A DNA stretch of 64,000 nt from an uncultured Pelagibacteraceae bacterium (GTDB lineage: Bacteria; Pseudomonadota; Alphaproteobacteria; Pelagibacterales; Pelagibacteraceae). Positions within the stretch are counted from its first letter, which is position 1, and each line of letters opens with the position of its first letter. The DNA lies in the NCBI GenBank assembly GCA_902582105.1, contig CACHQT010000003.1:17507-81506 (forward strand), given 5' to 3'. The position numbers and the translations under genes are program-made. A model generated the notes under the pieces. It was not told where the DNA came from and did no database searches. It saw only the letters and a program-made list of their open reading frames with translations. Below are positions 5,732 through 15,424 of this stretch, one piece after another.

Positions 5732-6559
5732 TTAATATTTCCCTATCTTTTCTGATCCGCTATAAAATATTTTAGACAACTCATCATTTGCCTTTTTTCT
5801 AGTTTTAATTCCACTTTGACTCATTAATTCTTGGGCTCTTTCTACGTGCTCATGATATTGGAATTTATCCTCACCCCTTGCTTGTTGAACGAACATCTTG
5901 CCCAAAACCTGCTCTACATTAGTGCCGATGTAACTTTGAATAACAAACCCAATTCTTCTATCATTGCTTTTATTTAAACCTGATCCATGAACTATAGTTG
6001 GATGATGTAAAGACATTTGTCCTGCTTTTAAAATAACTGGTTTAGTATCGTTAATAGGTACATTTTCAACAGTTTGACCTCTAGTTAGTAAATTATTTTC
6101 ATCAAATTTTTGATTATGGTTTTTAAGATTTTCTTTGTGAGAGCCTGACCACATTCTCATGCAACCATTCTCTTCATTTGCATCTGTTATTGCAACCCAG
6201 ACAGTAACCCAGTTATGAGGTTCAAGACCTATATATTTTGCATCTTGATGAAAACTTACAAAACCTTTTTCATTTGGATTTTTAATAAATAATGTTGTCC
6301 CACAAATAAGTATATTTTTACCAATTATACTTTCTACAGCATCTAAAATTTTCGAATTGTAACAAATTTTGTCAAATACAGGAGAGATTAAGTGAATATA
6401 GTTTCTTCCCAATCCTTCAAGTTCATTTGGCCATTTTTTTTCAATAAATTCTAACTCTTCTCTAACTTCATTAGCCTCTTTTTTTGACAATGCATCAATT
6501 GGAGCAATAAATCCTTCATCTTTATATTGCTTGAGTTGAGATGAGGTTAAGTAAGACAT
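5732..6559 (-). CDS. Phytanoyl-CoA dioxygenase (PhyH) family protein
   Basis: FHQDAKYIGL (HxD) and HHPTIVHGSGLNKSNDRR motifs. Confidence 0.88.
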   Translation of the reverse strand: MSYLTSSQLKQYKDEGFIAPIDALSKKEANEVREELEFIEKKWPNELEGLGRNYIHLISPVFDKICYNSKILDAVESIIGKNILICGTTLFIKNPNEKGFVSFHQDAKYIGLEPHNWVTVWVAITDANEENGCMRMWSGSHKENLKNHNQKFDENNLLTRGQTVENVPINDTKPVILKAGQMSLHHPTIVHGSGLNKSNDRRIGFVIQSYIGTNVEQVLGKMFVQQARGEDKFQYHEHVERAQELMSQSGIKTRKKANDELSKIFYSGSEKIGKY

Positions 6560-6562
6560 TGT

Positions 6563-7243
6563 TTAGGTTAATTTGTTTTTATAAAGTCTATCTTCATAAT
6601 GAAACGTAGGGAAACGAAATTTTTTAATTAAAGTAAATTGGTTATTTATAAGAAAGTTATCACATTCTTTAAAATCACTATTTTTATAAAGATTGAAAAA
6701 CTGATTCTCAATTAACACAAAGTCTATTTTTTTTATCGTATTTTGTGCACCTTTTAAAACATTTAGCTCATATCCTTCAACATCAATTTTCAAAAGTGAA
6801 TTTTTTAATTCTAGATCTTTAAAATATTCGTCAATTGTTTCTGTTTCTACCTCATAAGAATCGTTTTCTTTTTTTTGCTTAAGCAATAAATTCTTTATTT
6901 TTAAAAAAAAGGAATCTTCGTCTATTTCACTTAATGTGGAAGTTGATGTTAATTTATTAATTGTTATTATTTTTTTTCCTTTGATATCTCCTATTCCTAT
7001 ATTGTTATGCATTATTCTATTATCTTTATTTAAATTTTTTTTTAAAATTTCAAAAATATATTTTTGAGGCTCAAATGTATAAGCTTTCTTAAATGGAATA
7101 TATTTTGTAGCATTTTTTATGAATTCACCCTTATGAGATCCAACATCAATGATTAAATCAATTTTATAATTATTTAAAAATTTAATTAATCTTTTATGGT
7201 GATAGTTTTTATCGATAAAGTTTACAAATTTTTCAAATATCAT
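6563..7243 (-). CDS. FkbM family methyltransferase
   Basis: LIIDVGSHKGEF, FEPQKYIFEILKKN, LLKIDVEGYELNVLKGA. Confidence 0.9.
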   Translation of the reverse strand: MIFEKFVNFIDKNYHHKRLIKFLNNYKIDLIIDVGSHKGEFIKNATKYIPFKKAYTFEPQKYIFEILKKNLNKDNRIMHNNIGIGDIKGKKIITINKLTSTSTLSEIDEDSFFLKIKNLLLKQKKENDSYEVETETIDEYFKDLELKNSLLKIDVEGYELNVLKGAQNTIKKIDFVLIENQFFNLYKNSDFKECDNFLINNQFTLIKKFRFPTFHYEDRLYKNKLT

Positions 7244-12199: not shown

Positions 12200-12862
12200 T
12201 TATTTATGTGGATCTGGTACTTTTCTTAAGTAAGGTTTTATAGTTTCCCATCCGTCCGGATATATTTTTTTTGCTTCGTCATTTGTTACTTTAGGAACTA
12301 TAATTACTTTTTCACCTGGTTTCCAGTCGGCAGGTGTTGCAATTTTATGCTTAGCTGTTCGCTGCATTGAGTCAATTGCTCTTAGTATCTCTCCAAAATT
12401 ACGACCTGTAGTCATTGGATATGTTAAAAATAATCCAATTCTTTTATCTGGTCTTATAACATAAACAGTTCTTACTGTTTCATTATCTACTGCTGTTCGC
12501 CCCATTGAAGTTGTTCCAGCATCTCCTTCTAACATATTATAAAGTTTTGCGACTTCTAATTTTTCGTCAGCAATTATTGGATAAGATGGTTTCATACCAC
12601 AAACATCTTTGATGTCATCTAACCATTTAACATGATCAGAAACTGGATCAACACTCAGGCCAATAACTTTAACGTTCCTAGCATCAAATTCTGGTTTCAT
12701 CTTAGCTAATGCACCAAGTTCAGTAGTACAAACTGGTGTAAAATCTTTTGGGTGTGAAAATAATACTCCCCAACTATCTCCAAGCCACTCATGAAAGGAT
12801 ATATCCCCTTCTTGAGTTTGAGCTTTAAAATCTGGAGCAAGACTGTTTATTTTTAATGTCAT
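12200..12862 (-). CDS. 1-Cys (Prx6-type) peroxiredoxin
   Basis: HPKDFTPVCTTELGALAK; long C-terminal domain with WKPGEKVIIVPKV. Confidence 0.95.
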   Translation of the reverse strand: MTLKINSLAPDFKAQTQEGDISFHEWLGDSWGVLFSHPKDFTPVCTTELGALAKMKPEFDARNVKVIGLSVDPVSDHVKWLDDIKDVCGMKPSYPIIADEKLEVAKLYNMLEGDAGTTSMGRTAVDNETVRTVYVIRPDKRIGLFLTYPMTTGRNFGEILRAIDSMQRTAKHKIATPADWKPGEKVIIVPKVTNDEAKKIYPDGWETIKPYLRKVPDPHK

Positions 12863-12944
12863 TTTTTCTCCTAAATAAGTTTTTATAAATAAATTATATG
12901 CAAGATTGATTTGTCATGCAATTTTTTATAATGTTTCTAAAGTA

Positions 12945-13640
12945 ATGATTTTCAATCAAATATTTGACGATAAATCTTCAACCTATACGTACATAATTGC
13001 AAGCGATAAAGGTAGAGAAGCATTGATTATTGACCCAGTTATAGAAAAAACTGATGAATATTTAAAGGTTTTGAGAAAATTAGACCTTAAGTTAGTTAAA
13101 GTAATTGATACACATATTCATGCTGATCACATAACAGGACTTAATGAACTTAGCAAAAGAACAAATTGTACTAAAATTATGGGAGAATGCTCAAAATCTG
13201 AAGTGGTAGATTTAAAAGTCAAAGAAGGTGAAAAAATAGAAATTGATAAAATTGAGTTAAAAACAATTTACACTCCTGGTCATACAGATTGTTCTTATAG
13301 CTTCCTAATGAATGATAAAGTTTTTACTGGAGATACACTCCTGATCAATGGAACTGGTAGAACAGATTTTCAAAATGGAAGTGCTGAAACTCAGTACGAT
13401 TCATTGTTTAATAAATTATTAAAATTGCCTGAAAAAACAATTGTCTACCCAGCACATGATTATAACGGTAAAAAATTTTCAACAATTGGAGATGAAAAAA
13501 ATAAAAATCCAAGACTTCAAGTAAACAATGTAGGTCAATATATTGAAATAATGAACAATCTTAAACTAGCAAATCCAAAAATGATGGATATCGCAGTCCC
13601 AGCAAATTTAAAAGGTGTTACACTAGATCAGTTAAAGTAA
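12945..13640 (+). CDS. MBL-fold persulfide dioxygenase (ETHE1-like)
   Basis: DTHIHADHITGL, TPGHTDCSYSF, GTGRTDFQNGSAETQYDSLFNKLLKLPEKTIVYPAHDYNG; start placed at the internal ATG (MIFNQIFDDKSSTYTYII), as the upstream 13 aa look non-coding. Confidence 0.92.
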   Translation: MIFNQIFDDKSSTYTYIIASDKGREALIIDPVIEKTDEYLKVLRKLDLKLVKVIDTHIHADHITGLNELSKRTNCTKIMGECSKSEVVDLKVKEGEKIEIDKIELKTIYTPGHTDCSYSFLMNDKVFTGDTLLINGTGRTDFQNGSAETQYDSLFNKLLKLPEKTIVYPAHDYNGKKFSTIGDEKNKNPRLQVNNVGQYIEIMNNLKLANPKMMDIAVPANLKGVTLDQLK

Positions 13641-13689
13641 GCGACAAATTAATTATTGTAATTTAACAGATAATACCTATATTTCAAAT

Positions 13690-13809
13690 ATGGCATGTAA
13701 TAACCATAAATGTGAATGTACGAACTGCACAAATGATATTTGTAGATGCGATGGAAGTATGCAGTGTGTTTGTCAACCTGAAGAAGCTAGTTGTTGTTGC
13801 AACAAATAG
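13690..13809 (+). CDS. 39-aa Cys-rich metallothionein-like protein
   Basis: Hand translation MACNNHKCECTNCTNDICRCDGSMQCVCQPEEASCCCNK*: 11 Cys in 39 aa with CxC, CxxC and CCC patterns; below ORF-track length cutoff. Confidence 0.75.
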   Translation: MACNNHKCECTNCTNDICRCDGSMQCVCQPEEASCCCNK

Positions 13810-13839
13810 TTTTTAGTTAATCTTATTCTCTAAAAAATT

Positions 13840-14421
13840 ATGAATGAATATTTAGAATCTATTATTAAAAGAGATCCAGCTGCTAAATCTAAGCTTAGTG
13901 TAATTTTGACTTATCCTGGTGTTAAAGCTGTATTTTTTCACCAAATTGCAAATTTTTTCTCCCTAGCAAAATTTGATTTGATAGCGAGAATTATATCTCA
14001 ATTTTCAAGATTTTTAACAGGAATAGAAATACATCCTAAAGCAAAAATTGGAAAAAATTTATTTATCGATCATGGTATGGGTGTTGTAATTGGTGAAACT
14101 TCAGAGATTGGAAATAATGTAACTATTTATCATATGGTTACTTTAGGGGGTATATCGCCAAGTATAAATTCTGATGATCAAAGAAACACTAAAAGACATC
14201 CAACTTTAATGGATAATGTTGTTGTTGGATCTGGTGCGCAAATTTTGGGACCAGTAGTAATTGGAAAAAATGCAAAGATTGGTGCTAATGCAGTAATAAC
14301 TAAAGATGTTCAAGAAAATTCTGTGATGGTTGGAATACCTGCAAAAAATGTAGGAGAAAGCTCTCCTAGCGATGAGTCTTTCAAACCTTATGGTATTACT
14401 AAGGAAAGTGATAAAAATTAA
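13840..14421 (+). CDS. cysE: Serine O-acetyltransferase
   Basis: [44 protein letters not shown] hexapeptide repeats. Confidence 0.95.
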
Positions 14422-14422
14422 A

Positions 14423-15424
14423 ATGAAAAATGCTCAAAACAATTTTATCGAGGGCATTGGAAATACTCCACTAATTAAACTTAAAGCTGCATCAGAAATA
14501 ACAGGATGTAATATTTATGGAAAAGCTGAATATTTAAACCCTGGTGGTTCTGTAAAAGATAGAGCGGCTCTAGCATTAATTAAAGATGCAGAAGGAAAAA
14601 AACTAATTTCAAAAGGTGGAACAATTGTTGAAGGTACAGCGGGTAATACTGGAATTGGATTATGTCTTATAGGTAACTCAATCGGTTATAAAACAATCAT
14701 TGTTATGAATGATAACCAAACCCAAGAAAAAAAAGATATGCTAAGAAATATTGGAGCAGATTTAAGGTTAGTACCACCAAAACCTTATAAAGATGATGGT
14801 AATTATGTAAAAGTTGCAGGAAAACTTGCTGAGGAATTAAAAAGTACAAATAACCATGGTGTAGTTTGGGCTAACCAATTTGATAATACTGCTAACGCTA
14901 AGGGTCATTATGAATCTACTGGACCTGAAATTTGGGAACAAACTGATAGAAAAGTTGATGCTTTCGTTTGTTCGTCGGGAACAGGCGGAACAATAGCGGG
15001 TGTTAGTAGTTATTTAAAAGAAAAGAATAAAAATATTAAAATTTATTTATCTGATCCAGCTGGTTCTTCTCTTTATAACTATATACAAAATGGTGAACTG
15101 AAAAGCGAAGGTGGTTCAATTACCGAAGGAATTGGGTCAAGTAGAATAACAGCAAATTTTGCCGAAGCTAAAATAGATGGAGCATTCTCAATAAGTGATC
15201 ATGAATCTTTACCTGTAATTTTTGATTTAATACAAAATGAAGGATTGAGTTTAGGAACTAGTTGTGGAGTAAATATTGCTGGTGCAATAAAACTTGGAAA
15301 AGAATTAGGTCCAGGAAAAACTATAGTTACAATTCTTTGTGATAAATCTGATAAATACAACTCAAAGCTGTTTAATAAAAAATTTTTAAAAGAAAAAGGT
15401 CTACCTTATCCTAATTGGATATAA
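14423..15424 (+). CDS. cysK: Cysteine synthase
   Basis: NPGGSVKDRAAL, EGTAGNTGIGL, GTGGTIAGVSSYLK; start at MKNAQNNF immediately after the cysE stop. Confidence 0.93.
   Translation: MKNAQNNFIEGIGNTPLIKLKAASEITGCNIYGKAEYLNPGGSVKDRAALALIKDAEGKKLISKGGTIVEGTAGNTGIGLCLIGNSIGYKTIIVMNDNQTQEKKDMLRNIGADLRLVPPKPYKDDGNYVKVAGKLAEELKSTNNHGVVWANQFDNTANAKGHYESTGPEIWEQTDRKVDAFVCSSGTGGTIAGVSSYLKEKNKNIKIYLSDPAGSSLYNYIQNGELKSEGGSITEGIGSSRITANFAEAKIDGAFSISDHESLPVIFDLIQNEGLSLGTSCGVNIAGAIKLGKELGPGKTIVTILCDKSDKYNSKLFNKKFLKEKGLPYPNWI

Follow-up and report, generated by a model that had tools for sequence, protein, structure and literature searches.

A conserved cysteine-rich, metallothionein-like peptide gene between persulfide dioxygenase and cysE-cysK genes in SAR11 bacteria

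The locus and its neighbours

The window considered here is a stretch of 64,000 nts (29% GC) from an uncultured Pelagibacteraceae bacterium with a 0.95-Mb draft genome. Between a gene for a persulfide dioxygenase and the cysE-cysK pair, on the same strand, it has a 39-codon open reading frame preceded by promoter-like hexamers, with an RNA hairpin at its 3′ end (Table 1). An earlier sequence-only reading had pointed to this ORF, with its 11 Cys in 39 residues, and re-translation confirms it. The placement between the dioxygenase gene and cysE-cysK is also borne out, by the coordinates and by PDB matches of the dioxygenase to 4ysb (deposited as a metallo-beta-lactamase family protein, E = 1.5e-68) and to human persulfide dioxygenase ETHE1 (4chl, E = 7.8e-54).

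Table 1. Features of the locus (window positions) and, in the last four lines, positions of the Bacteroidota loci taken up at the end of the text
Feature	Position	Strand	Basis or remark
1-Cys-type peroxiredoxin, divergent neighbour of the dioxygenase	12200..12862	-	family searches, synteny
Persulfide dioxygenase (ETHE1 type), always the upstream neighbour	12945..13640	+	homology; start is the ATG where homology begins
-35-like hexamer TTGTAA	13656..13661	+	TTG kept in relatives
-10-like hexamer TATATT, 6 nt before ATG	13678..13683	+	TATAT kept in relatives
ORF, metallothionein-like 39-aa peptide (11 Cys)	13690..13809	+	translation, homologues with invariant Cys framework, dN/dS
RNA hairpin over CCC codons (13792-13800), stop codon and 5 nt spacer	13782..13814	+	covariation, synonymous recoding
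cysE, serine O-acetyltransferase, 30 nt 3′ of peptide ORF	13840..14421	+	TIGR01172, 6.7e-63
cysK, cysteine synthase-type PLP enzyme	14423..15424	+	PF00291, 1.8e-72
Bacteroidota Cys-dense locus L101	6923-7607		
Bacteroidota Cys-dense locus L119	near 5947-6594		
Bacteroidota Cys-dense locus L136	7442-8000		
Bacteroidota Cys-dense locus L156	242-895		

The peptide, MACNNHKCECTNCTNDICRCDGSMQCVCQPEEASCCCNK, is encoded from ATG to TAG, and Cys makes up 28% of it while F, W and Y are all missing. No other ATG-initiated ORF of 30-100 aa in the window has as high a Cys content (the runner-up has 8 Cys in 41 aa). In 30 random windows of the same dinucleotide make-up no ORF was equally Cys-rich, the best reaching 16%; the Cys content is far above chance. 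Metallothioneins in the broad sense are small, with some 20-30% Cys or more in C-x-C and C-x2-C groups and few or no aromatics. The window peptide has this composition, and the pattern is kept in its homologues. An AlphaFold model of the peptide (pLDDT 63) was left unused, as such models are uninformative for this class of peptide.

The promoter-like elements recur in relatives. Among 65 distinct upstream regions, TTG at −34 to −32 from the ATG is present in 89-97% and TATAT at −12 to −8 in 94-97%, with variable spacer positions, and 92% of these regions, against 1.1% of shuffled sequences, have the two boxes in the arrangement TTG-N15..18-TATA. With the −10 box at −12 to −7, transcription is predicted to start on the A of the ATG itself, and the peptide mRNA would then be leaderless. 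No Shine Dalgarno-like sequence was found 5′ of the peptide ORF, nor 5′ of cysE.

Gene order in relatives is peroxiredoxin (divergent), dioxygenase, peptide, cysE, cysK. In the loci compared, cysE is directly 3′ (within 80 nts) of 128 of 129 ORF copies, a count in which some of the loci overlap, and the distance from peptide ORF to cysE is 25-38 nts across copies. An ETHE1-type dioxygenase gene adjoins the peptide gene in every copy whose upstream sequence is covered. In one genome (G243, locus L059, reverse strand from ~4606) cysE-cysK are absent from the locus, other genes standing in their place after the peptide gene, yet the dioxygenase gene, promoter and ORF are all kept, as is a hairpin of 11 bp with TTTT behind it. 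When cysE was sought in the rest of this one genome, which is 66% complete, no true cysE was found.

Distribution, history and selection

Homologues were found in 10 of 101 genomes by tblastn-like searches, and profile searches among 399 same-genus genomes gave at first 74 and later 80 carriers, each with a single match. An order-wide sample gave 36 of 297 genomes, from two genera of one family (the genome's own and one other), and in a phylum sample of 399 genomes the source genome alone matched (0 of 398 others). The sequence-only reading had staked its case on the frame being conserved in close relatives, and it is so: frame, start, stop and Cys positions are kept across 74 distinct coding sequences. 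The conserved Cys spacing and the cysE/cysK synteny that it proposed to look for are both there as well.

The framework C3-C8-C10-C13-C18-C20-C26-C28-CCC varies little or not at all. In a 31-member alignment M1, C3, N5, C8, C10, C13, C18, C20, C26, C28, C36 and C37 do not vary at all. Length ranges from about 36 to 44 codons and Cys number from 11 to 14, with the indel forms (36, 39 and 44 aa) retaining the C-x-C/C-x2-C pattern. One variant (L058) ends in SYCCYCC rather than SCCCNN, so that its C-terminal Cys cluster is rearranged with no change in Cys number.

Selection was assessed from independent close pairs among the 74 distinct coding sequences, with changes then split by region. N-terminal Cys codons have 34 synonymous versus 2 nonsynonymous changes (dN/dS 0.005) and those of the C-terminal CCC region 11 versus 2 (dN/dS 0.018), while for non-Cys codons dN/dS is ~0.36 in both parts of the peptide. 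The Ka/Ks comparison that had been suggested earlier thus comes out as purifying selection. With Cys codons near-frozen and other sites constrained, it is the peptide itself, beyond its RNA, that is under selection. The ORF is short, lies in AT-rich DNA and has a Cys-rich C-terminus that partly overlaps RNA structure, as might be expected of a spurious frame or of a hairpin that by chance reads Cys-rich. But the Cys-rich N-terminal two thirds are outside the hairpin and the conservation across 74 sequences under purifying selection refutes this explanation, to which practically no credence is given.

In a cysE-cysK tree all peptide-bearing loci are in one clade (support 95), which is the same clade as that with the dioxygenase gene between those for peroxiredoxin and cysE. 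Three separate groups inside this clade lack the peptide; they retain the dioxygenase, and the gap from there to cysE is just 21-51 nts. Judged by this pattern, the peptide gene was apparently gained once and cleanly lost at least three times. In two of the three loss groups a TATA box is now immediately 5′ of the cysE ATG. The loci lacking the ORF in which a TATATA-like box is within ~10 nts of that ATG are L087, L091-L093, L332 and L073, and there cysE may itself be leaderless. A different state is seen in genome G048 (L361 / L083), where a 19-codon remnant, MACNISNCKFKQASENCCC, stands 5′ of cysE. The middle of the ORF is gone, but CCC, start and promoter are retained, and so is a better hairpin of 10 perfect bp. 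This short ORF may reflect decay or an assembly fault.

The constant company of the dioxygenase raises the alternative that the peptide is a carrier or buffer of sulfane sulfur rather than of metal, its persulfidated Cys passing sulfur to, or guarding against sulfur from, the dioxygenase and cysteine synthase. The peptide was found in none of the loci where cysE lacks an adjoining dioxygenase gene (20 in-genus and 7 outgroup loci), and this despite the presence of a more distant dioxygenase elsewhere in most such genomes tested. The co-occurrence is equally well explained, however, by one insertion event in one clade, and three lineages have lost the peptide yet retain the dioxygenase. A composition dense in C-x-C and C-x2-C and free of aromatics, as in this peptide, is typical of metal-thiolate clusters. 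A sulfur-only function of this kind is considered improbable.

The 3′ hairpin and expression of cysE-cysK

The hairpin family model has 15 paired columns. In the window 14 pairs form around a 3-nt loop, with the CCC codons lying partly in the 5′ arm and partly in the loop. The 3′ arm contains the stop codon and finishes in TTTTT as in a terminator. Of the window's 73 gene ends none folds more strongly, and none has a lower z when compared with synonymous recodings. On recoding, 19 of 20 representatives (<80% identical) proved more stable than their recoded counterparts (mean z −1.65; sign test p = 4e-5). In a gapless alignment of 19 sequences 88% of cells are paired and 7 of the 15 pairs have changed on both sides, with post-stop spacer positions among those that match changes in upstream codons; the covariation score is far above those of shuffled and slid controls. 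These 19 sequences were picked from copies of the 39-, 40- and 44-aa types showing the hairpin register, and the recoding tests that take in hairpin-less copies still favour the hairpin.

The structure is conserved in most lineages but is not uniform across them. It is in another register in the 36-aa lineage, and absent or weak in both the 38-aa lineage and the one ending CCCCND, and a U-run (T4 or more within 9 nts of the stop) is present in 23 of 74 copies, so a terminator role would not be general. The 3′ hairpin alone is supported, when lineages are taken one by one: the whole-ORF consensus fold from RNAalifold is nearly empty (−0.64 kcal/mol), and the complete ORF folded as a single sequence shows nothing remarkable. 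No Rfam or riboswitch element was detected in 12850-14000.

The first interpretation of this DNA stands in that the gene is real, metallothionein-like in make-up, uncatalogued and syntenic, but it had overlooked the promoter, the hairpin and a rival to which these and the gene's position give rise, namely that the ORF is a cysteine-sensing leader peptide that only or mainly regulates cysE-cysK. When Cys-tRNA is low, ribosomes delayed at CCC would occupy the 5′ hairpin arm, termination would not occur and cysE-cysK would be transcribed. As expected of a leader, this is the first ORF after a promoter, it is short and shortly 5′ of cysteine genes, and its run of Cys codons comes just before the stop. 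The covarying hairpin takes in those codons and, in the window and in 23 of the 74 copies, is accompanied by a U-run. The TATA box abutting cysE after two of the losses, and the parts kept in the G048 remnant, fit too.

There are precedents. In actinobacterial cys operons, leader peptides have runs of Cys close to their stop codon (PMC1262725, PMC4633059), and the Rhodobacterales cysS attenuator uORFC-8-2 has tandem Cys codons in a stem, with a terminator (PMC8632094). The SAR11 gene resembles both in being a short ORF 5′ of a cysteine gene with tandem Cys codons near its stop, and each in one further respect: the mycobacterial cys leaders are leaderless and uORFC-8-2 has the Cys-codon stem. 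Unlike those leaders, as far as they are described there, the SAR11 peptide is strongly selected at the protein level over its whole length, the 8 N-terminal Cys and several further residues included. Also unlike them, no separate antiterminator fold was found for the SAR11 gene, the near-empty consensus fold offering no alternative structure.

A leader is free to drift outside its regulatory codons, and here neither the N-terminal Cys, which are mostly far from the hairpin, nor the non-Cys residues do so, though a leader has no need of either. The frozen N-terminal Cys, and the retention of ORF and hairpin in G243 where no cysE was found, weaken the leader explanation. In addition, some lineages retain CCCC and have no hairpin, and many dioxygenase-less cysE loci do without any such ORF. 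With 11 Cys codons, starved ribosomes would stall 5′ of CCC, and regulation would then have the wrong sign. Sulfur limitation did not induce cysK or cysE in Ca. P. ubique (PMC5069961), a result that lends cysteine attenuation no support, if that strain carries the gene. A solely or mainly regulatory ORF is therefore regarded as unlikely.

A probable small thiolate peptide of its own kind

No catalogued family accommodates the peptide. Pfam and NCBIfam returned no family for the window copy, none of 31 members matched a metallothionein model of Pfam, PHROG had no matching family, and in PDB no metallothionein was found at E up to 10, by sequence or by family profile. PDB matches to LDL-receptor and CD38 fragments (E ~1) were set aside as noise from Cys composition. 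The suggestion that it is not SmtA/BmtA and possibly a distinct family agrees with these searches.

The 31-member alignment has no conserved His column, and so neither conserved His ligands nor a zinc-finger-like centre. In cyanobacteria, unlike pseudomonads, smt loci typically adjoin a gene for an ArsR/SmtB-type repressor. None is adjacent here, the neighbours being peroxiredoxin, persulfide dioxygenase, cysE and cysK. By these tests the peptide falls outside SmtA/BmtA: neither profiles nor PDB match, His is not conserved and SmtB is not a neighbour. Like SmtA, BmtA and PflQ2MT of cyanobacteria and pseudomonads, the SAR11 peptide is small, cytosolic by sequence, built on C-x-C and C-x2-C groups and similar in potential ligand number. 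Unlike them it is without conserved His, has a CCC terminus and lies in a cysteine-synthesis run, and the window copy is aromatic-free. SmtA binds 4 Zn (PMC10612145, PMC7387436). MymT, the mycobacterial Cu(I) metallothionein (PMC7387436), is likewise a short Cys-rich bacterial peptide but comes from a different lineage, and the family searches gave no match. On its sequence, then, the peptide is metallothionein-like in make-up and, as tested, outside the SmtA/BmtA family.

The reading held with moderate confidence is that promoter, ORF and terminator-like hairpin form a complete mini-gene, whose product is a metallothionein-like thiolate peptide, small and cytosolic. The gene is taken as autonomous on account of two features: its most constrained Cys are the N-terminal ones, outside the hairpin, and G243, where no cysE was found, retains it. 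The leaderless mRNA would mostly end, or be stabilised, at the hairpin, so that peptide would be made in greater amount than CysE and CysK, and cysE-cysK would be reached by read-through, from the peptide promoter or from the dioxygenase gene. The 11-14 Cys in C-x-C, C-x2-C and CCC groups would bind soft metal ions as metal-thiolate clusters; by analogy alone, 11 Cys would correspond to about 4 divalent ions or several Cu(I). With such binding the peptide could act as a buffer for Zn, Cu or Cd, and perhaps against thiol or sulfane-sulfur stress, the cell being one that lives on reduced sulfur. Encoding it between persulfide oxidation and cysteine synthesis would then tie supply of a costly Cys-rich product to cysteine metabolism. 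The protein probably serves to buffer metal or sulfur and probably represents a hitherto undescribed family.

The tight cysE link could nevertheless mean a regulatory role besides. That the peptide is a metallothionein-like buffer and that, in addition, translation of CCC through the hairpin sets cysE-cysK transcription is a tentative proposal, somewhat doubtful at present. If true, the cell, of a genus poor in regulators, would be gauging cysteine by making its most cysteine-demanding protein.

SAR11 are among the most abundant ocean cells, and are streamlined. Since they cannot reduce sulfate, each cysteine is costly to them. A dedicated, strictly conserved Cys-rich peptide in part of SAR11 was not found in the databases searched, nor was a description of it in open-access literature, and it would offer a handle on how these cells deal with trace metals and sulfane sulfur. 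Protein code, leaderless promoter and terminator-like hairpin overlapping within ~160 bp would be unusual compaction, and a locus so compact makes the question of metal buffer versus leader peptide directly testable.

Similar-looking peptides occur elsewhere. Though a phage origin of the SAR11 peptide was rejected, with no match in INPHARED phages, eight IMG/VR contigs (L234, L261, L277, L230, L268, L296, L221 and L320) encode Cys-rich peptides of 27-40 aa, such as MACENEKCKCENCTCDPCLCTEDKQCECAKE, among apparent phage structural genes, with an N-terminus resembling that of the SAR11 peptide. Unnamed metallothionein-like peptides of viral contigs (MACENEKCKCENCTCDPCLC...) and of Bacteroidota (MNNCKCTNCDCTKCNCGNC...) share C-x-N-x-K-C-x-C-x-N-C and related spacing with it but differ in genomic setting and C-terminus, and homology is not claimed, as the search pattern itself produced part of the likeness. 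Another Cys-dense peptide of Bacteroidota, different from this one and exemplified by MNNCKCTNCDCTKCNCGNCLESNCPCSKCDCDKCDCC with 14 Cys in 37 aa, is encoded directly 5′ of an ECF sigma-factor gene in 4 of 4 loci. For the sigma factors of the 3 loci tested the nearest model is SigZ, with E-values of 1e-42 to 1e-44 that stay below the model cut-off, and the SigZ-like sigma factor itself has a Cys-rich tail.
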